DNA of 64,000 bases from Agreia sp. COWG (GTDB taxonomy: Bacteria > Actinomycetota > Actinomycetes > Actinomycetales > Microbacteriaceae): positions 2,604,001-2,668,000 of the forward strand of contig NZ_LR882035.1 in assembly GCF_904528075.1 (NCBI RefSeq), given 5' to 3'. The position numbers were made by a program, and so were the translations under genes. Each line of letters opens with the position of its first letter. The stretch's first letter is position 1. Shown here one piece after another: positions 2,343 through 41,196 of the stretch. Below the pieces are notes generated by a model that was not told where the DNA came from, ran no database searches, and saw only the letters and a program-made list of their open reading frames with translations.

Positions 2343-2562
2343 GATGGCGTCCTTTCGTCAGGAGCCCGACAGAGGGCTAACGCCACTGTTGCACGATCGC
2401 GCGCACAGCCCAATGGGCTTGCGCTGTGAGGCTGGGCGTAGTCGCGCTGAGGCGCGGGATACGGCCGCTTCGACTCGCTCAGATGCGGCCGCTCTCCGAA
2501 ACTCAGGGCAGGCGGTCGAGGCCCCGCGCTCGATATGCCGCGCAACAGCCGATAGCGTGGCC
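2343..2562. other. Non-coding spacer upstream of the retron-like RNA
   Basis: 220 bp without a convincing gene. It must hold the divergent promoters of the small membrane protein (-) and of the retron-like RNA (+). Several inverted repeats are visible: a 5-bp stem with an AAT loop at 2407-2419, a 7-bp stem CGGCCGC/GCGGCCG at 2462-2468 and 2485-2491, and TCGAG/CTCGA at 2516-2520 and 2529-2533. None is followed by a T-run. They may be upstream RNA structure or chance in GC-rich sequence. Confidence 0.5.
2553..2558 (+). promoter_or_regulatory. Possible -10 element of the retron RNA
   Basis: TAGCGT fits the actinobacterial TANNNT -10 pattern. Its last T is 5 nt before the first base of the 22-bp inverted repeat at 2563, so transcription would start at or very near the 5' end expected for the RNA. 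No clear -35 is visible at the normal distance. Weak evidence taken alone. Confidence 0.3.
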
Positions 2563-2733
2563 GCATGCGACGGTCCGCGAGCGAGGTGGGTGGCGTCTCG
2601 CGATGCTCACCCTCTCCGGGGCTACCCCGGGGCACTTCTCCTAGCCTCCACACGGAACCGCAGGCACTACACCGCGCTTCGCGCGGCCATGTGCCCGCAC
2701 CGATCGACTGGTCGCTCGCTGGCCGTCGCATGC
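2563..2733 (+). ncRNA. Candidate retron msr-msd RNA
   Basis: A 171-nt stretch bounded by a long inverted repeat: arm 1 at 2563-2584 and arm 2 at 2712-2733 pair over 22 positions with 20 Watson-Crick pairs, one G-U and one mismatch. This matches the a1/a2 repeat that closes retron RNAs. Between the arms are three hairpins: 2588-2612 (a 10-bp stem, TCGC loop, one bulge), 2616-2630 (CCGGGG-CTA-CCCCGG) and a long irregular hairpin at 2653-2702 whose apex is CCGCGC-TTC-GCGCGG. The first two could form the msr and the last the msd. An AGC at 2580-2582 near the end of arm 1 could hold the branching guanosine. The RNA ends 31 nt before the reverse transcriptase start, the usual retron order. The structure is read from the sequence; its role is inferred from the RT next door. 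Confidence 0.65.
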
Positions 2734-2764
2734 TCTCGCTCAGAATCGGCGAGAGGGGCCGTCT

Positions 2765-4120
2765 GTGAGGCCCGGCGCCACCGCACAGCCGAGCGCCACG
2801 ACGCTCGCAGCCGGCCTGGCGCATGCCATGCTCGCCTGCCCCCTGTGGACTTTCGATGTGCTCGTCGATGGCTGCGGTCGAGCCCTCGGATCGCGGCCCG
2901 GCTGGCTCTGGCCTCTCGTCGAACGAGTGCTGTCGAGCTACCACCGCCCGCCCCACGACGCCACGCGCGAGCTCGCGCGGTTCATCGCGCAGACGCGGGC
3001 GCTGCACGACGCCGTGGAGGCCGCCCGCGCCGACGGACGCACCATCGCTCTTCAGCATCTCGAGACGACCCCGGCCCGCTCGGGCGAGAACGGGGCCCGT
3101 GGTGTGCCACGGATCGACGGACTCAACCAGCTCGCCGAGTTCTTCGCCGTCACGCCGGGCCAGCTCGACTGGCTCACCGACACAGCGCACTACAACGGTC
3201 GCACCCGGCGGGGCAGGCTGCACCACTACAGCTACGACTGGATGCGCCGCGAAGGCCGGGCGCCACGCCTACTCGAGGTGCCGAGCCGGCGCATGCGAGA
3301 GGCCCAGCGGCTCGTGCTCGCAGAGATCCTCACCCCGCTGCCCCTGCACGACGCGGCCCACGGCTTCGTTCCCTCACGTTCGGCCATCACGGGGGCTGCG
3401 GCCCATGTCGGCGCCGAGACGCTGATCACCCTCGACCTGTCGACGTTCTTCGCTCGGGTTCCGGCTCGGCGGGTCTTCGGCATCCTGCGCCGGGCGGCAT
3501 ACCCCGAGGCCGTGGCGCACGCCCTCACCGGGCTATGCACGCACGCGGTGCCCTCGTGGGTGCTGGCCCGGATGCCCCCGGGCGGCTCCCCCGAAGAACG
3601 CGCCGCACTGCGCGAATCGCTCACCCGCTCGCATCTTCCGCAGGGATCCCCCACCTCGCCGGCACTGTCGAACCTGTCCGTTCGAGGCCTCGACGGGCGC
3701 CTCGACGGGTGGGCCGCGGCATCCGGTTTTTCGTACACCCGTTACGCCGACGACCTGTGCTTCAGTGGGCCACACCTCACCCACCGGGCTGCGGCCTCGT
3801 TCATCGCCGGCGCCGAGCGCATCGTGGCGGCCGAGGGGCACCGAGTGAACCGCCGGAAGACGCGCATTTCAGGCGCCGGATCGCGGCAGAGCGTCACAGG
3901 GATCGTCGTGAACGAGCGACTCAATGCCACCCGCGAGCATGTCGACGAGTTGAAGGCGATCCTGCACAATTGCGCAGTACACGGGCAAGCAAGCCAGAAT
4001 CGATTCGGTCACCCCGAGTTTCGTGCGCACCTCGAGGGTCGCATCACCTGGGTCGCCGCGCTGAACCCCGGGCGCGGTGCCCGGCTGCGCCGCCAGTTCG
4101 ACCTCATCGACTGGGGTTGA
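2765..4120 (+). CDS. Retron-type reverse transcriptase
   Basis: A 451-residue RNA-directed DNA polymerase. The RT core runs from about residue 120 to 430. Visible blocks are LDLSTFF (223-229, first catalytic Asp 224), HLPQGSPTSPALSNL (290-304, motif B), YADD (327-330, catalytic Asp pair), VNRRKTRI (361-368) and SVTGIVVN (376-383), the VTG-type block typical of retron RTs. AAHGF (197-201) resembles the retron-specific NAxxH region. The first ~115 residues are an extra, largely helical and Arg/Ala-rich segment without a recognised domain; many retron RTs are only about 320 residues. The GTG start is chosen for the GAGAGGGG ribosome binding site 7-8 nt upstream. It follows the candidate msr-msd RNA directly and has no co-directional partner downstream. 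Group II intron or DGR RTs are less likely: there is no maturase domain, no template repeats and no variable-protein gene. Confidence 0.9.
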   Translation: MRPGATAQPSATTLAAGLAHAMLACPLWTFDVLVDGCGRALGSRPGWLWPLVERVLSSYHRPPHDATRELARFIAQTRALHDAVEAARADGRTIALQHLETTPARSGENGARGVPRIDGLNQLAEFFAVTPGQLDWLTDTAHYNGRTRRGRLHHYSYDWMRREGRAPRLLEVPSRRMREAQRLVLAEILTPLPLHDAAHGFVPSRSAITGAAAHVGAETLITLDLSTFFARVPARRVFGILRRAAYPEAVAHALTGLCTHAVPSWVLARMPPGGSPEERAALRESLTRSHLPQGSPTSPALSNLSVRGLDGRLDGWAAASGFSYTRYADDLCFSGPHLTHRAAASFIAGAERIVAAEGHRVNRRKTRISGAGSRQSVTGIVVNERLNATREHVDELKAILHNCAVHGQASQNRFGHPEFRAHLEGRITWVAALNPGRGARLRRQFDLIDWG

Positions 4121-4142
4121 GGCTGGCCTGCCCAGCTACCGC

Positions 4143-4304
4143 CTATTTGCTCGCAAGGGTGGCGCAGGCGGGGCAGTGCGGGTAGCCGTTCGTTCCGAAC
4201 TTCTTGTTGTCGACCGGGATGGCCTTGCCCTCGGGGCAGTTGCGGTCATCGTGGAAGACATGAGTGTCTTGCGGCTTCTTCGAGTAGTACGGGTTGACCT
4301 TCAT
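4143..4304 (-). CDS. Small Cys-rich protein, hypothetical
   Basis: A 53-residue ORF starting MKVNPYYSKKP. It contains HVFHDDRNCPEG in the middle and PHCPACATL near the end, so one Cys plus a CPAC pair and several His could bind a metal (zinc-ribbon-like). It is short but has an ATG start, good composition and a sensible place: it converges on the RT gene 22 bp away and lies upstream of no other gene. Reading it as a genuine protein is inference from the Cys/His pattern. A role with the retron is possible but unsupported. Confidence 0.65.
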   Translation of the reverse strand: MKVNPYYSKKPQDTHVFHDDRNCPEGKAIPVDNKKFGTNGYPHCPACATLASK

Positions 4305-4329
4305 GCGTCAATCCTACGAAGGGCCGCGA

Positions 4330-4533
4330 CTAGGGTGAGCCGGGCCTGACTGTGGCGTCGTCGCGCACATCGATGCGGGTGACACCGTCATGGCTCGAGA
4401 CGTCGATGCGCGGCTCGGCGTCGGCGTCGGTCGACTTGGGTGCGGTCGTGAGTTGATCGCGACGCTTCTCTTCGGCGCTCATCTCGCTGGCGCCCGATGC
4501 ATCTGCGCTCGATTCAGCAGTACCGGATGCCAC
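4330..4533 (-). CDS. Small acidic hypothetical protein
   Basis: A 67-residue hydrophilic protein, rich in Ser, Ala, Asp and Glu, with no hydrophobic segment. It ends in alternating RIDV-type strands (RIDVSSHDGVTRIDVRD). The start is GTG, 3 nt after the stop of the upstream YtxH-like gene, so the two are probably co-transcribed. No family is recognised and function is unknown. Confidence 0.55.
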   Translation of the reverse strand: MASGTAESSADASGASEMSAEEKRRDQLTTAPKSTDADAEPRIDVSSHDGVTRIDVRDDATVRPGSP

Positions 4534-10631: not shown

Positions 10632-12220
10632 GCGAATCGACCACTCCCGCGGGAGGCGGCCTGGCGACGGCGTCGCCGGTCGTCTCCCTGTCGGGCGTCT
10701 CCGTCTCGTACGGCTCCAACCTGGTGCTGAGAGACGTGACGCTCGACTTCTTCCCCGGCCGTATCACCGCCCTGCTCGGGGCCAACGGTGCCGGCAAGTC
10801 CACACTCATCAAGGCGCTCTCCGGCGCCAACCCTCGCTACTCGGGCGACATCGCCATCGACGGCGAGGTTCTGCACCTCACGTCGCCGGTGCTCGCCAAG
10901 GCACGCGGCATCTCCACGGTGCACCAGAAGGTGGCCGACGGCATCGTGCCGGGGCTCTCGATCGCCGAGAATGTGGTGCTCGACGACCTCGCACAGGCCG
11001 CCAGGCATCCGCTGCGCAATCGCCGCCGGTCGCTGGCCGATGCCAGGGCAGCGCTCGCCACCCTCGGCCTCGACTGGCCCGACTCTCTGCTCGAACAGGA
11101 TGCCGCCCGGCTCAGCATCTCCGACGCGCAGCTGCTCGTTCTGGCCAGGGCGCTGCGCGGAACGCCACGGCTGCTGATCCTCGACGAGCCCACGTCGGCC
11201 CTCACGGCGGCCGAGGCCGAGCGGCTCTTCGAGGTGCTGCGCGCCCTCCGCGACACCGGCCTCTCGATCGTCTACGTCTCGCACCGCTTCGGCGAGATCG
11301 AGGCCCTCGCCGACCGCGTCGTCGTTCTGCGCGACGGCACGGTGCAGCATAGCTCCGAGCGTCCGTTCGCCTGGCACGACATCCTGCACGACATGCTCGG
11401 CCGGGCCACCTCGCTCGTCGAGCACCGCAGCGATGTGAGGCGCGGAGCGCAAGTGATCGCCGAGGTGCGCGGCGTCTCCCTTCTGCCGGATGCCGCCCCG
11501 CTCGACCTCGAGATCCGCTCGGGCGAGGTGCTCGGCATCCTGGGCCTCATCGGCGCGGGCAAGACCGAGCTGGCCGAGCTGCTCGCGGGGCTGGCGCAGC
11601 CGGCATCCGGCACCCTGGCCCTCGGCGGCGAGCCGTACAGCCCGAAGCGGCCATCCGATGCCCTCGGCAAGGGCGTGGTGCTGGTGCCGGAGGACCGACA
11701 GCGGCAGGGCCTGCTGCCCGGCTGGTCGGTCGCCCACAACATCTCGCTGCCTTTTCTCAAGCTCTCCTCTGCGCTCGGAACACTGCGTCGCTCGCGCGAA
11801 CAGAGCCGCGCAGACGAGGTGATCACGTCTCTCGGCGTCGTCACCGCCGGTGCGGATGCCTCGATCGACGACCTCTCGGGCGGCAACCAGCAGAAGGTCG
11901 TGGTGGGCCGGTGGCTCTCCGCCGGGCCGCGGCTCGCCCTGCTCGACGAGCCGTTCCGCGGGGTGGACATCGCCGCCCGCCGCGAGATCGGCGCTCGCCT
12001 CAGGCACCTCGTGGCCGACGGCGATGCGGGTGCCGTCGTGCTCTCGAGCGATGTCGACGAGATTCTCGAGGTCGCCGACCGCGTGATCGTTCTCGTGGCC
12101 GGCGCGATCGAATACGACGCCTACGCCGACGACAGCGACCGATCCACCATCGTGGGCGCCTTTCTCGGAGCCCGAAACAGCACCCATCACGACGCGTCAC
12201 CCGAAGGACAGCCGACATGA
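10628..12220 (+). CDS. Sugar ABC transporter ATPase, tandem NBD (RbsA-like)
   Basis: A 530-residue protein with two fused nucleotide-binding domains, as in ribose-class importers. NBD1 has a canonical Walker A (GANGAGKST), a D-rich LSISDAQLL signature region and LILDEPTSALT. NBD2 has the degenerate GLIGAGKTE Walker A usual for the second half of this class, then LSGGNQQKVVVGRWL and LLDEPFRGVD. The GTG start overlaps the stop of the binding-protein gene (GTGA) and is preferred to an in-frame ATG 18 bp upstream inside that gene. It powers uptake with the permease that follows. Confidence 0.9.
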   Translation: MSESTTPAGGGLATASPVVSLSGVSVSYGSNLVLRDVTLDFFPGRITALLGANGAGKSTLIKALSGANPRYSGDIAIDGEVLHLTSPVLAKARGISTVHQKVADGIVPGLSIAENVVLDDLAQAARHPLRNRRRSLADARAALATLGLDWPDSLLEQDAARLSISDAQLLVLARALRGTPRLLILDEPTSALTAAEAERLFEVLRALRDTGLSIVYVSHRFGEIEALADRVVVLRDGTVQHSSERPFAWHDILHDMLGRATSLVEHRSDVRRGAQVIAEVRGVSLLPDAAPLDLEIRSGEVLGILGLIGAGKTELAELLAGLAQPASGTLALGGEPYSPKRPSDALGKGVVLVPEDRQRQGLLPGWSVAHNISLPFLKLSSALGTLRRSREQSRADEVITSLGVVTAGADASIDDLSGGNQQKVVVGRWLSAGPRLALLDEPFRGVDIAARREIGARLRHLVADGDAGAVVLSSDVDEILEVADRVIVLVAGAIEYDAYADDSDRSTIVGAFLGARNSTHHDASPEGQPT

Positions 12221-13266
12221 CCAGCACCCCCCTCCCCTCGCGATCCACGTCGCTCGCCGAGCGCGGCGCAGCATTCGTGGTGCGCTGGGGCTTCATCGCC
12301 GTGACCGTGGCGCTGATCGCGTTCTTCGTGATCACCGAGCCCAACTTCCGCACCGCCGACAACGTCTTCGGCATGCTCAAGTTCATCGCCCCGACCGCCA
12401 TCGCCGGCCTCGGCGTGATGCTCGCGATCACGGTCGGCGGCATCGACCTCTCGGTGGGCGCCTCGGCCGGCTTCGCCGTATCGATCGCGGCGTGGACCAT
12501 GGTGATCGGCAACCAGGTCGGTGGCGTCGCGATCGGCGTCGTGCTTCTCAGCGGGCTGCTCATCGGCGGCCTGAACGCCTTCCTCATCGTGGTCGCCCGC
12601 ATCCCCGACCTGCTGGCGACCCTCGCGACCTCGTTCGTGATCGTCGGACTCAAACTGCTGATCGTCGACGGCAAGTCCATCTCGTCGCAGATGTCGCTGG
12701 CCGACGGATCGACGGCGCCCGGCAAGTTCACCGCCGACTACCTCTGGCTCGACCGGGGCAGCCTCGGCCCTGTGCCCGTTCCCGTGATCATCTTCGTGGC
12801 CATCACGGCGCTGCTCTGGTTCATCCTCGAGCACACGCGCTGGGGCCGCGCCCTCTACGCGGTGGGGGCGAACGCCGAGGCAGCCCGGCTCGCCGGCATC
12901 CGGGTTCAGCTCTACCGCACCGTCGCCTACATGGGCTGCGGCCTTCTCGCCTCGATCGCCGGCCTGCTGCTGGGCGCGCGCATCGGTCAGGGGGACGTCT
13001 CCGCGGGCAACTCGCTGCTGCTGGATGCCGTGGCCGTGGCGCTCGTGGGCGTCTCGGTGCTCGGCATCGGCCGGCCCAACGCCTGGGGGACGGCGCTCGG
13101 CGCCATCCTGATCGCCGTCATGGTGACCGGCTTCACCATGGTGGGCCTGCCGTACTATGCGCAGGACTTCGGCAAAGGTATCGTTCTGCTGATCGCGCTG
13201 CTGTTCAGCTTCACGTTCAGTCGCCGTCGCACCGTGGTGACGGCCGGCAGCACGACCTCGTCGTAG
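12217..13266 (+). CDS. Sugar ABC transporter permease (RbsC-like)
   Basis: A 349-residue membrane protein with about 8-10 hydrophobic helices, of the BPD_transp_2 family. Typical ribose-permease stretches are seen: TVGGIDLSVGA, LYAVGANAEAARLAGI (the loop that contacts the ATPase) and the LLLDAVAVALVGVSVLG segment. It starts within the ATPase stop (ATGA). With a single permease gene, a homodimeric channel is expected. The end of the gene is 44 bp before mtnK. Confidence 0.9.
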   Translation: MTSTPLPSRSTSLAERGAAFVVRWGFIAVTVALIAFFVITEPNFRTADNVFGMLKFIAPTAIAGLGVMLAITVGGIDLSVGASAGFAVSIAAWTMVIGNQVGGVAIGVVLLSGLLIGGLNAFLIVVARIPDLLATLATSFVIVGLKLLIVDGKSISSQMSLADGSTAPGKFTADYLWLDRGSLGPVPVPVIIFVAITALLWFILEHTRWGRALYAVGANAEAARLAGIRVQLYRTVAYMGCGLLASIAGLLLGARIGQGDVSAGNSLLLDAVAVALVGVSVLGIGRPNAWGTALGAILIAVMVTGFTMVGLPYYAQDFGKGIVLLIALLFSFTFSRRRTVVTAGSTTSS

Positions 13267-13310
13267 CCGGTCTTCTCGCCTCGCCCTGCTCGTCTCGTCG
13301 AAAGCGTCCC

Positions 13311-14564
13311 ATGACCGACTTCAGCCAGCTCACCGTCGAGACCGTGCCCGCCTATGTGGCCCAGCGGCCCGCCTTGGCACGGCGCATCCGTTCGACGGGC
13401 GAGCTCGACGTGGTCGAGGTCGGCGACGGAAACCTGAATCTGGTCTTCATCGTTCGCGATGCCGAGGGCGGCTCGCTCGTGCTGAAGCAGTCCCTGCCGC
13501 ACGTGCGCACCGATCCGAGCTGGCCGATGACGCGCGAACGCAGCGCTCGCGAGGCACTGGTACTGAAGACGCACGAGGGGGCGGATGCGCGACACGTTCC
13601 GGCCCTGTACGACGTCGACGGCGACGACTACGTGCTCGCGATCGAGAACCTCGACGACCACGTGGTCTGGCGAACAGAGCTGAACGAGGGGCGCCCGCAC
13701 GGCTACGCGGCGGGCGAGATCGGTCGTTACGTGGCCCGCACGGCATTCCACACGTCGATCTTCGGCCTCGATCCGCTCGAGCAGAAGAAGCTGGCGGCGG
13801 CGGCGATCAACCCGGAGCTGTGCGAGATCACAGAAGACCTCGTCTTCACGGAGCCGTATATCGAGCACGCACACAACGCGGTGCTGCGGGGGAACGAGGC
13901 CGACGTCGCCGCGCTGCGCGCCGATCGCCGGCTGCTGACCGAGATCGGCATCGCGAAGTACCGCTTCATGACGAGCGCCCAGTCGCTGATCCACGGCGAT
14001 CTGCACACGGGATCGGTCTTCGTGCGCGAGGCTTCCGGCACGCCAGGCGCCGGTGCCGCGGCGGCTACCGGCACCTCCGTTCGCGCGTTCGACAGCGAGT
14101 TCGGCTTCTTCGGACCCACGGGCTTCGACCTCGGCATCCTGTGGGCGAACCTCGTGATCGCGGCTGCCCGCGCCCGGGCGCTCGGCGAGGCAGATCGAAC
14201 GCAGCACATTCTGAGCCTGCCCGCCGAGCTGTGGAACGCCTTCGAGGCCGAGTCGCGTGCCCTCTGGCCCGCACGCCGCGACCCGCGCGTGTTCGGAGAC
14301 GAGGTCCTCGAGGCGCTGCTCACGGAGTTCCGCGAAGATGCGGCCGTGTACGCGGGAGCCGAGGCTATTCGTCGCATCGTCGGCTTCGCCAAGGCCACCG
14401 ACATCGAGACGCTCGAGCCCGGTCTGCGGGAGGGCGCCGCTCGGGCAGTGCTGCGCGCTGGGCGTGCGCTCATCGTGGAGCGACGCGGCCTCACGAGCGT
14501 CGAGGCCCTCTCTTCCGAGACCGCAGCGATCTTCGACGAGACGATCAACCCCGCCGAGCTCTGA
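13311..14564 (+). CDS. mtnK: S-methyl-5-thioribose kinase (transport-linked copy)
   Basis: A 417-residue aminoglycoside-phosphotransferase-fold kinase that phosphorylates 5-methylthioribose at O1. Visible features are GDGNLNLVFIV (nucleotide loop), LVLKQSLPHVR (ATP-binding Lys), LIHGDLHTGS (catalytic loop, near residue 228) and FDSEFGFFGPTGFDLG (metal-binding Asp). An Ala/Gly/Thr-rich insertion of about 17 residues sits between the last two. It follows the ABC importer, so it probably traps incoming methylthioribose. A second, clearly different MtnK lies at 17267-18487 on the other strand. The ribosome binding site is weak. Confidence 0.88.
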   Translation: MTDFSQLTVETVPAYVAQRPALARRIRSTGELDVVEVGDGNLNLVFIVRDAEGGSLVLKQSLPHVRTDPSWPMTRERSAREALVLKTHEGADARHVPALYDVDGDDYVLAIENLDDHVVWRTELNEGRPHGYAAGEIGRYVARTAFHTSIFGLDPLEQKKLAAAAINPELCEITEDLVFTEPYIEHAHNAVLRGNEADVAALRADRRLLTEIGIAKYRFMTSAQSLIHGDLHTGSVFVREASGTPGAGAAAATGTSVRAFDSEFGFFGPTGFDLGILWANLVIAAARARALGEADRTQHILSLPAELWNAFEAESRALWPARRDPRVFGDEVLEALLTEFREDAAVYAGAEAIRRIVGFAKATDIETLEPGLREGAARAVLRAGRALIVERRGLTSVEALSSETAAIFDETINPAEL

Positions 14565-38949: not shown

Positions 38950-41196
38950 CTAGACGCTGCGCAGGTCGTCGAGCAGCTGATCGCCGGGGCGGGCGTTCAC
39001 GGTGTTCGCACGGATCTCCGCGCGACCGAGAAGCTCGTCCATACGACGCTGGCGCGAACGGTTGATGAGCGTGATGACCATTCCCTTCTTACCCGCGCGA
39101 CCGGTGCGGCCCGAGCGGTGAAGGTAGGTCTTGTACTCGTCGGGCGCATCGGCCTGGATGACCAGGTTGATGTCGTCGACGTGGATGCCGCGCGCGGCGA
39201 CATCGGTCGCGACGAGCACATTGACCCGGCCGCTGGTGAGCAGCTGCAGGTTGCGCGTGCGGCGCGACTGGTTGAGGTCTCCGTGCAGGCTGGTCGCCGG
39301 GATGCCGGCGTCGTCGAGCTGGTCGGCCAGCTCTTCGGCGAAGGCACGGGTGCGGGCGAAGACGAGGGTCTTGCCAGGGCCCGAGGCGAGCTGCTGGATG
39401 ATCTCGCGCTTGTCGCGCTGCTCGATGAGAAGCACGCGGTGATCGATCGTCGAGGAGGCCTGGTCTTCACCGGCGACCTCGTGCACGGCCGGGTTCACGA
39501 GGAACTCGTTCACCAGCTGGGCGACACCCTTGTCGAGGGTCGCCGAGAACAGCAGGCGCTGTCCGCCGGGCGCGACCAGACGCAGGATGCGCTGCACCGG
39601 CTCGAGGAAGCCCAGGTCGCACATGTGGTCGGCCTCGTCGAGCACGGTGATGGTGACCTTGGAGAGGTCGAGACGACCCTGCTCCACGAGGTCCTCGAGA
39701 CGGCCGGGGGTCGCGATGATGATGTCGGTTCCCCGCTGCAGGGCCGAGACCTGCTTGAACTGCGGAACGCCGCCGAACACCGTTGTGGTGTTCAGGCCGA
39801 CGGCGCGAGCGAGAGGCTGCACGGTTCCGTCGATCTGCATCGCCAGCTCGCGCGTCGGGGCGAGGATCAGGGCGCGGGGCAGGCGACCGGGCTTGCGGCC
39901 CTTGGCTCCACCGTTCTCCATGAGGCGTTCGACGACGGGAGCACCGAACGCGATCGTCTTGCCGGAGCCGGTCTTGCCGCGTCCCAGAACGTCTTTGCCG
40001 GCGAGCACATCGGGAATGGTCGCGGCCTGGATCGGGAACGGGCTGAGAGCGCCCATGGACTGCAGCTGGCGCTCGAGGTTGTCACCCAGACCGAGGTCTT
40101 TGAAGGTCACACCCTCGACCTCGACGGCGGTCGTCGCCTGCGCCTCGAGGCGCTCGAGAACGACGTCGTCGACCGGAGCGTGTCCAGCAGAGGGGCGGTC
40201 GTCGCGCTTCGGGTAGAAGTCCGAGCCACGGTCGTTGCCTCGCTGGGGGCGGTCGTCGAAGGAGCGCTTCGGACGATCGCTGTACGACGGACGCTCGCTG
40301 CGCTCGGGGCGGTCACCATACGAGGGACGCTCGCTGCGCTGGGGACGGTCACCGTACGACGGACGCTCCGTGCGAGCAGGGCGGTCACCGTACGAAGGAC
40401 GGTCGCTGCCGCGCTCGGGGCGGTCGCCATACGACGGACGCTCGCTGCGCTGCGGGCGGTCACCATACGCGGGACGCTCGCTGCGGGCCGGACGGCCACC
40501 ATACGACGGACGATCCGAGCCAGCGGAACGCTGCGGACGGTCACCATACGACGGACGCTCGCTGCGCTGCGGGCGGTCACCATACGAAGGACGATCCGAA
40601 CCGGCGGAACGCTGCGGACGGTCACCGTAGGACGGACGCTCGCTGCGGGCCGGACGGTCACCGTACGAGGGACGGTCCGAGCCAGCGGAACGCTGCGGGC
40701 GGTCAGCGTAGGACGGACGCTCGCTGCGCTGCGGACGGTCACCATACGACGGACGATCCGAACCAGCGGAACGCTGCGGGCGGTCACCGTAGGACGGACG
40801 CTCGCTGCGCTGCGGACGGTCACCATACGACGGACGATCCGAACCAGCGGAACGCTGCGGGCGGTCACCGTACGCGGGACGGTCGTTGCTGCGCTGCGGA
40901 CGGTCACCATACGCGGGACGCTCGTTGCGCTGCGGGCGATCGCCATACGACGGACGCTCGCTGCTGTTGCTCCGCTGCGGGCGGTCGCCATACGACGGAC
41001 GCTCGTTGCTGTAAGAGGGGCGCTCGGCGGCGCGGGAGGCGCGCTCGTCGGCATTCCAGCGAGCCTTCTTGGGGGCGCCGGATGCGGGAGCCGCCTGGTA
41101 GCCGCGGTGGCCGGGAGACTTGCTTCCCGACTTCGAGCCGTTGGGAACGTAGTTCTTGGCGGGCTTGAAGCCGCCTGACTTGTTGTTTTTGGGCAT
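38950..41196 (-). CDS. DEAD-box RNA helicase with N-terminal repeat domain
   Basis: A 748-residue helicase. Residues 1-57 are basic. Residues 58-320 are about 20 copies of a short unit such as ERPSYGDRPQRS, low-complexity and probably disordered. The core follows: Q-motif region from 364, GRGKTGSGKT (Walker A, to 414), APTRELA, VLDEADHMCDLGF (DEAD at 520-523), SAT at 551-553, VLVATDVAARGIHVDDI and HRSGRTGRAGK. Most bacterial homologues carry a basic RNA-binding tail at the C-terminus; here the C-terminal tail is very short and the repeats are at the front. It unwinds RNA in ribosome assembly or mRNA decay. The 5' leader can hide the ribosome binding site (41202-41273). Confidence 0.92.
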   Translation of the reverse strand: MPKNNKSGGFKPAKNYVPNGSKSGSKSPGHRGYQAAPASGAPKKARWNADERASRAAERPSYSNERPSYGDRPQRSNSSERPSYGDRPQRNERPAYGDRPQRSNDRPAYGDRPQRSAGSDRPSYGDRPQRSERPSYGDRPQRSAGSDRPSYGDRPQRSERPSYADRPQRSAGSDRPSYGDRPARSERPSYGDRPQRSAGSDRPSYGDRPQRSERPSYGDRPQRSAGSDRPSYGGRPARSERPAYGDRPQRSERPSYGDRPERGSDRPSYGDRPARTERPSYGDRPQRSERPSYGDRPERSERPSYSDRPKRSFDDRPQRGNDRGSDFYPKRDDRPSAGHAPVDDVVLERLEAQATTAVEVEGVTFKDLGLGDNLERQLQSMGALSPFPIQAATIPDVLAGKDVLGRGKTGSGKTIAFGAPVVERLMENGGAKGRKPGRLPRALILAPTRELAMQIDGTVQPLARAVGLNTTTVFGGVPQFKQVSALQRGTDIIIATPGRLEDLVEQGRLDLSKVTITVLDEADHMCDLGFLEPVQRILRLVAPGGQRLLFSATLDKGVAQLVNEFLVNPAVHEVAGEDQASSTIDHRVLLIEQRDKREIIQQLASGPGKTLVFARTRAFAEELADQLDDAGIPATSLHGDLNQSRRTRNLQLLTSGRVNVLVATDVAARGIHVDDINLVIQADAPDEYKTYLHRSGRTGRAGKKGMVITLINRSRQRRMDELLGRAEIRANTVNARPGDQLLDDLRSV
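40237..41025 (-). repeat. Tandem coding repeats of the helicase N-terminus
   Basis: About 790 bp of imperfect repeats, mostly of 36 or 45 bp, encoding SYGDRPQRS units alternating ERP and SDRP. Variation is mostly at third codon positions plus a few Ser/Ala, Gln/Ala and Gly/Ala changes. This indicates the array is under protein-level selection but copy number is probably variable. The repeats also give long open frames on the other strand that are not genes. Confidence 0.85.

Follow-up and report, generated by a model that had tools for sequence, protein, structure and literature searches.

Excerpts of a 2019 review list experimentally validated retron reverse transcriptases (RTs) only from Gamma- and Deltaproteobacteria, putative actinobacterial retrons being known before from bioinformatic surveys (PMC6868368). 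Retrons typically guard a toxin (PMC12548924, in the part consulted), and PADLOC holds models of retron RNAs (PMC9252829, likewise in part). The locus described here belongs to Agreia sp. COWG and lies in a 64-kb stretch of DNA (hereafter the window) from contig C1 of a genome of 3.44 Mb. Among solved structures, its RT is most similar to that of retron Ec86 (Eco1), a likeness known for the RT only: the Ec86 enzyme is shorter (a chain of 314 residues) and is matched in the RT part, and Ec86 has an effector partner in the solved complex 7v9x, whereas none is visible at the window locus. An N-terminally extended RT, as in the window, is reported for Mx162 (Mxa1), Mx65 (Mxa2), Sa163 and Ne144 (PMC6868368, excerpts), Mx65 being likened to our retron by description only. 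In the same excerpts the priming motifs of myxobacterial retrons (CAGC, GAGC) can be likened to the GAGG of the window, and the vertical inheritance suggested for Mx162 and Sa163 is a further likeness. The Mx162 transcript of 241 nt, with 162 nt of DNA (same excerpts), compares with 171 nt for the window RNA.

Layout of the locus and identity of the reverse transcriptase

The original prediction, made from the sequence alone, read this region as a retron in the order a1, msr, msd, a2, RT, a reading supported by the covariation and by the presence of the RNA beside RT homologues described below. The features are as follows.

2553..2558, plus strand: -10-like element TAGCGT (TANNNT kept across co-oriented loci); predicted to set the transcription start close to the 5' end of a1
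2563..2584, plus strand: a1 arm of the priming stem (22-nt inverted repeat and covariation, 19 rows)
2585..2585, plus strand: predicted priming (branch) guanosine, within GAGG 2583-2586 (motif conserved; its role would follow from that)
2588..2612, plus strand: msr hairpin 1 (double changes in 8/9 pairs, 83.6% of cells paired, 19 rows)
2614..2632, plus strand: msr hairpin 2, CTCCGGGG-CTA-CCCCGGGG, the family's most conserved helix
2633..2659, plus strand: linker; reverse transcription predicted, from its position, to stop in or near it
2660..2698, plus strand: hairpin 3, the interrupted msd template core (covariation and DNA hairpin fold)
2711..2711, plus strand: predicted first template base G, the first DNA base being dC (G precedes a2 in 52/55 rows; putative role)
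2712..2733, plus strand: a2 arm of the priming stem (basis as for a1)
2751..2758, plus strand: ribosome-binding-like GAGAGGGG, 6 nt ahead of the GTG start (read from the sequence)
2765..4120, plus strand: retron reverse transcriptase, 451 aa, GTG at 2765 to stop at 4120 (Pfam, PADLOC, PDB, Foldseek)
2765..3094, plus strand: N-terminal RT domain, all-helical, residues ~1-110 (the model shows five helices; N-terminus profile)

The order along the DNA is a1, the priming G (2585), two msr hairpins, the msd hairpin, a2 and the RT, with inverted repeats enclosing msr and msd beside the RT as is characteristic of retrons. The arms 2563-2584 and 2712-2733 (22 nt, 91% complementary, 127 nt between them) form 20 Watson-Crick pairs, one G-U pair and one mismatch when counted base by base, exactly as first proposed; the 171-nt region does contain three hairpins, the last of which (2660-2698) is interrupted and irregular, and the RT starting at 2765 does carry YADD, QGSP and VTG.

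A Pfam search assigned the RT to RVT_1, and the presence of YADD together with VTG agrees with the signature of retron-type RTs (YXDD, and VTG in region Y). In region X the RT has HDAAH, which agrees with NAXXH at the H only, so that the strict motif is absent; the motif is not universal, since excerpts of PMC4244168 state that it was identified in 59% of the retron RT sequences studied there. Among the PADLOC models, RT_other (542 bits) and RT_outgroup (509 bits) scored best on the window RT and RT_XIII came next (286 bits), which places the RT_outgroup match above the numbered retron types, as expected of a PADLOC outgroup retron, and RT_XIII below both, out of line with a Type XIII or Mx162-like retron. 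Five RTs of the clade (from Myxococcus, Actinoplanes, a Planctomycetaceae MAG, Amycolatopsis and Paraburkholderia) likewise matched RT_other best and RT_outgroup second, in models that cover the protein only. Judged by these matches, the RT clade is already known (PADLOC RT_outgroup); in a scan of named genomes it reaches beyond actinobacteria. The best PDB sequence match was the retron Ec86 RT, and so was the best Foldseek match (TM-score 0.71 by target length, 0.51 by query length), the query being an AlphaFold2 model with a mean pLDDT of 84.6 and a pTM of 0.61.

The RNA matched no Rfam family at gathering scores, the sub-threshold rows looking like chance, and in the literature, where the relevant retron surveys were partly covered, we found no description of such an actinobacterial RNA. 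To that extent the suggestion that the RNA may be undescribed stands, but we do not claim novelty for it.

Covariation, predicted priming site and promoter-like element

The segment 2555-2740 has a predicted RNA fold of -107.2 kcal/mol (z -5.67), with 0 of 200 shuffles as low. By our own inverted-repeat script, the arms rank second among the 229 distinct best tile repeats of the 64-kb window, and the strength of the repeat was rejected as proof by itself. Since the repeat is unexceptional in a GC-rich window, it is the comparative evidence, and not the repeat, that decides. The same script scored another inverted repeat, at 40773-40964 of the window, above the retron arms.

Among the 27 loci scanned first by script (L002-L028), 18 have paired arms that enclose 124-128 nt, 17 of these being titled Micrococcales and one (L008) Vibrio cholerae. 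The window and these 18 loci were aligned with MAFFT, structure not being used (alignment A2, 19 rows), and RNAalifold found 50 pairs, 31 of them with compensatory changes. Three doubtful pairs (columns 30-32 with 103-105) that would engage the priming G were removed, and all counts were made on the remaining 47. Paired cells amount to 94.3% (76.2 in shuffles), 30 of the 47 pairs are changed on both sides (21.8 in shuffles) and the covariation score is 0.506 (0.175 in shuffles), with none of 500 shuffles as high in any of these measures; the number of extra pair types is reached by 4 of 500 shuffles, and slid controls gave covariation scores of 0.06-0.13. The compensatory changes in homologues by which the original prediction proposed to be judged are thus many. 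They extend to 16 of the 18 scored pairs of the a1/a2 stem and to 6 of the 12 pairs in the two helices of hairpin 3, where more than 96% of cells are paired; hairpin 2 has 99.3% of cells paired and no double changes. The complement of 2640-2711, moreover, folds as a DNA hairpin (z -2.59).

A wider alignment (A3) comprises 55 of 77 sources, hand-picked to thin near relatives, with 48 rows outside the training set. It has 92.6% of cells paired and double changes in 47 of 50 pairs, figures that are flattered by the fitting of this alignment to the model and weigh less than those of A2. In it, hairpin 2 shows 99.8% of cells paired and double changes in 5 of its 8 pairs.

At the inner end of a1, GAGG is present in all 19 rows of A2, and any base followed by AG is found there in 43 of the 55 rows of A3, across phyla, the other 12 rows being without it at the aligned place. 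Immediately before a2, 52 of the 55 rows have G and three have a gap. A conserved guanosine at the inner end of a1 is what a retron is expected to have; known retrons show TAGC, CAGC, GAGC, CAGA and ACGC around the priming G (PMC6868368, excerpts).

Upstream of the RNA, TANNNT lies 26-31 nt before GAGG in 44 of the 44 co-oriented loci counted, and the 80-nt stretches scanned contain just one more TANNNT, in a count that left aside duplicates of named loci (L084, L094, L107, L108, L160), L007, the partial match L105, the more distant actinobacteria and five unfetched family genomes. From TAGCGT at 2553-2558, transcription would begin around 2563-2566, at the 5' end of a1. The element came from this comparison; a sigma-70 consensus scan of 2400-4400 yielded no promoter and was dropped as a source of promoters.

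Distribution, inheritance and an inverted form

A scan of named genomes returned at least 568 RT relatives, of which the best 80 were kept. The covariance model R1, built from the 19 rows of A2, was run on the window and these best 80, and it matched at E up to 0.02 in 77 of the 81 sources, just upstream of the RT and on the same strand except in L024. RT homologues lacking an upstream structure, which the original prediction had named as evidence against itself, are therefore few among these best 80 of at least 568. No good match was found in L022 (whose contig starts 117 nt before the RT match), L075, L054 (E 0.021) and L080 (E 1.7). The titles of R1-positive sources, again among the best 80, include Myxococcota, Planctomycetota, Acidobacteriota and Pseudomonadota, with Myxococcus, Pyxidicoccus, Paraburkholderia, Gemmatimonas and a Verrucomicrobiales MAG; phyla are given by record title, and many of these sources are MAGs that may be misbinned. 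L008 (titled Vibrio cholerae) and L007 (an Acidobacteria MAG) have Micrococcales-like RNAs scoring 158 and 127 bits; the RNA of L008 resembles those of Arthrobacter agilis and the RT of L007 groups with Micrococcales in the tree, and both are likely cases of contamination or misbinning. The RTs of L068, L072, L075 and L080 have a different N-terminus with a hydrophobic-looking start, and R1 gives weak matches to their RNAs or none.

Of 299 family genomes, 35 have the RT (E up to 1e-60), and exactly these 35 also have the RNA, with one match each; in one of these (G153) they lie on separate contigs, the RT match being near a contig end. None of the 264 RT-less family genomes has the RNA, and RNA was found in 29 of 29 family-genome loci, some of which repeat named loci of A2 (e.g., L084 = L002). 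In the window's own genome the sole other R1 match scores 19 bits (E 0.62). The RT is absent from 264 of 299 family genomes and 380 of 394 class genomes; the RNA is near the RT in all 14 RT-positive genomes of the class sample (13 and the window). An RNA search of 296 class genomes found it in nine, all RT-positive, with no match for the RT-positive G416, G436, G587, G604 and G678, which may lie outside that sample. Three myxobacterial genomes (L125-L135) have three to four RT matches each (E 1e-10), one per genome with a significant RNA; the eight further RT loci there gave no significant RNA match (best E 4.8), and the one RT tested among them scored best on RT_XIII.

The RT is under purifying selection. 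None of the 35 family matches contains an internal stop, and dN/dS by the NG86 method is about 0.13-0.20 in the ten pairs of five genus relatives and 0.24-0.29 in the five pairs that include the window, whose dS is high; the YN00 method failed for 7 of the 15 pairs, among them all five window pairs. Within the genus the RT is present in 7 of 8 genomes, and in 5 of the 5 relatives compared it lies between the same flanking blocks. Of the 146 plasmid and 16 phage records with a match, none reaches 60% identity. Upstream of the RNA, the five genus relatives carry an additional block of ~2.7-3.8 kb, which is missing at the window site (near 2440-2550); in L114 this block holds an 859-aa frame (11124-13703) of ClpB/ClpC-type ATPase, a relative of which is found in L115, and at E 1e-20 the window genome matches this frame elsewhere only (47-53% identity).

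A different arrangement occurs in genus g46 of the same family, where the RT is present in 12 of 15 genomes. An intact RNA (108-125 bits) lies just upstream of the RT on the opposite strand in 10 of the 12, and in the two deeper RT genomes it is co-oriented with the RT. The ten inverted loci (L149-L158; L091, L096 and L098 are the same places as L155, L149 and L150) group with 100/100 support in a tree of 31 RTs. This tree needs two orientation changes, apparently one inversion event in g46 and a second in L024 (RNA 54 bits). Between RNA and RT, 9 of the 10 inverted loci have a palindrome with overlapping TAGGCT on both strands, and all 10 have TANNNT 27-29 nt before GAGG, which by sequence suggests a divergent promoter pair. 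The inversion is a natural experiment, and it suggests that RNA and RT can be expressed separately.

Neighbours, rival readings and proposed working

Clustering of the reading frames in 81 loci (the window and the best 80 of at least 568; flanks of up to 6 kb, many contigs being shorter) revealed no clade-wide neighbour besides the RT, the remaining clusters being frames antisense to the RT, families lying at varying distances or near relatives. Likewise, reading the next gene by GC frame gave no common partner in 30 other actinobacterial loci; the rows for the window, L005, L013 and L042 were in a wrong frame. The nearest frames in the window, both on the minus strand, are 2097-2342 (81 aa) and 4143-4304 (53 aa). 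An effector gene beside or fused to the RT, as in tripartite retrons, was thus not found in the fetched flanks of the 81 loci, but an unrecognised effector may reside in the N-terminal domain. In the AlphaFold2 model the first ~110 residues form five helices ahead of the RT domain; neither Pfam nor NCBIfam matches them. With a profile built from 21 N-termini, the domain is detected at E 0.01 in 67 RTs, those 21 included, of the best 80 of at least 568. Three Amycolatopsis RTs are without it and keep the RNA, so that over evolution the domain is not needed for pairing with the RNA. In four Amycolatopsis loci (L042, L047, L061, L073), three of which have an RT without the N-terminal domain, a pentapeptide-repeat-like frame follows just after the RT stop (Pfam was run on that of L061 only); it could be a partner, or mere synteny of close species.

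We consider it very probable that an intact and working retron of the 'outgroup' RT clade is present here and operates as proposed below, with production of msDNA as the expected outcome. The upstream structure could instead be a cis-acting leader of the RT message, an attenuator or riboregulator rather than a template. As such a leader would, it immediately precedes the RT and shares its strand, both in the window and in 75 of the 76 other matched sources (among the best 80 of at least 568). In g46, however, the intact RNA with its own -10-like element lies on the strand opposite to the RT in 10 of 12 RT genomes and therefore cannot lead the RT message there; an interior of almost constant length (124-128 nt across the 18 A2 loci), the geometry of the priming stem and the retron-type RT also fit a template, and we regard a leader as very unlikely. 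We give still less credence to the idea that the enzyme belongs to other defence RTs (DRT, Abi) or is related to group II intron maturases, the RNA being part of such a system. The NCBIfam group II RT and Drt2 models do match weakly, at 43.9 bits (cut-off 300) and 34 bits (cut-off 390), but PADLOC retron models score far higher (although NCBIfam retron models also fall below their cut-offs), the enzyme has VTG, its closest solved relatives in both sequence and fold are retron RTs, and the RNA has the a1-msr-msd-a2 order. Equally improbable in our view is a decaying remnant, folded but no longer working. The patchy occurrence between genera would suit it, as would L148, where an RNA of 76 bits lies ~600 nt from an RT match spanning query residues 284-450 only, the RT there being probably broken; against it stand the uninterrupted frames of the family RTs, their purifying selection, the conserved promoter-like element and the compensatory changes.

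Compatible with an intact retron, and a real though not a leading possibility, is a tripartite-like anti-phage system that has the fused helical N-terminus or an unlinked gene as its effector, and in which a phage would disturb the RNA-DNA-RT complex and so free a toxic or signalling activity. Known retrons typically work in this way (PMC12548924, in the part consulted), and the N-terminal domain is kept in most of the RTs profiled. The lack of a common neighbour gene in the fetched flanks of the 81 loci, the single site in the genus relatives compared, the dearth of close plasmid or phage matches and the Amycolatopsis RTs that keep the RNA without the domain all speak against it. With no effector common to the loci, the usual defence mechanism would be without a visible executor. 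As a matter of judgement, we assign about a third to phage defence via the N-terminal domain or an unlinked partner, and about a third to a product that serves a cell function.

For the intact retron that we favour, the fold of the RNA, its co-occurrence with the RT, their conservation and the selection on the RT are established by sequence comparison; the steps from transcription to the branched product are drawn by analogy with known retrons. A short transcript, probably starting near a1, would fold via a1 and a2 into the structure that the covariation tests. The RT would bind this RNA, prime DNA synthesis at the 2'-OH of G2585 and copy from G2711 back through hairpin 3 to a stop in the linker, while host RNase H would strip most of the copied RNA. 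The product would be a branched RNA-DNA molecule with ~55-80 nt of DNA carried by hairpins 1 and 2, a length guessed from the position of the linker. As a first guess, it may act as a sensor or regulator in phage defence through the RT N-terminal domain or an unlinked partner.

More tentatively, and with considerable doubt, the locus may represent a two-part retron family of RNA and RT only, which record titles place in at least six phyla and which some genera keep at a fixed site. In it the RNA would be a free-standing unit and the product would serve a cell function, or defence with the RT N-terminal domain as executor. An RNA fold shared across phyla beside no visible effector raises the question of what role a toxin-less retron may have. 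The RNA-RT pair could also serve as a compact tool for DNA production in high-GC hosts. With its predicted priming G, promoter and stems, this defined actinobacterial pair makes msDNA directly testable in another phylum.
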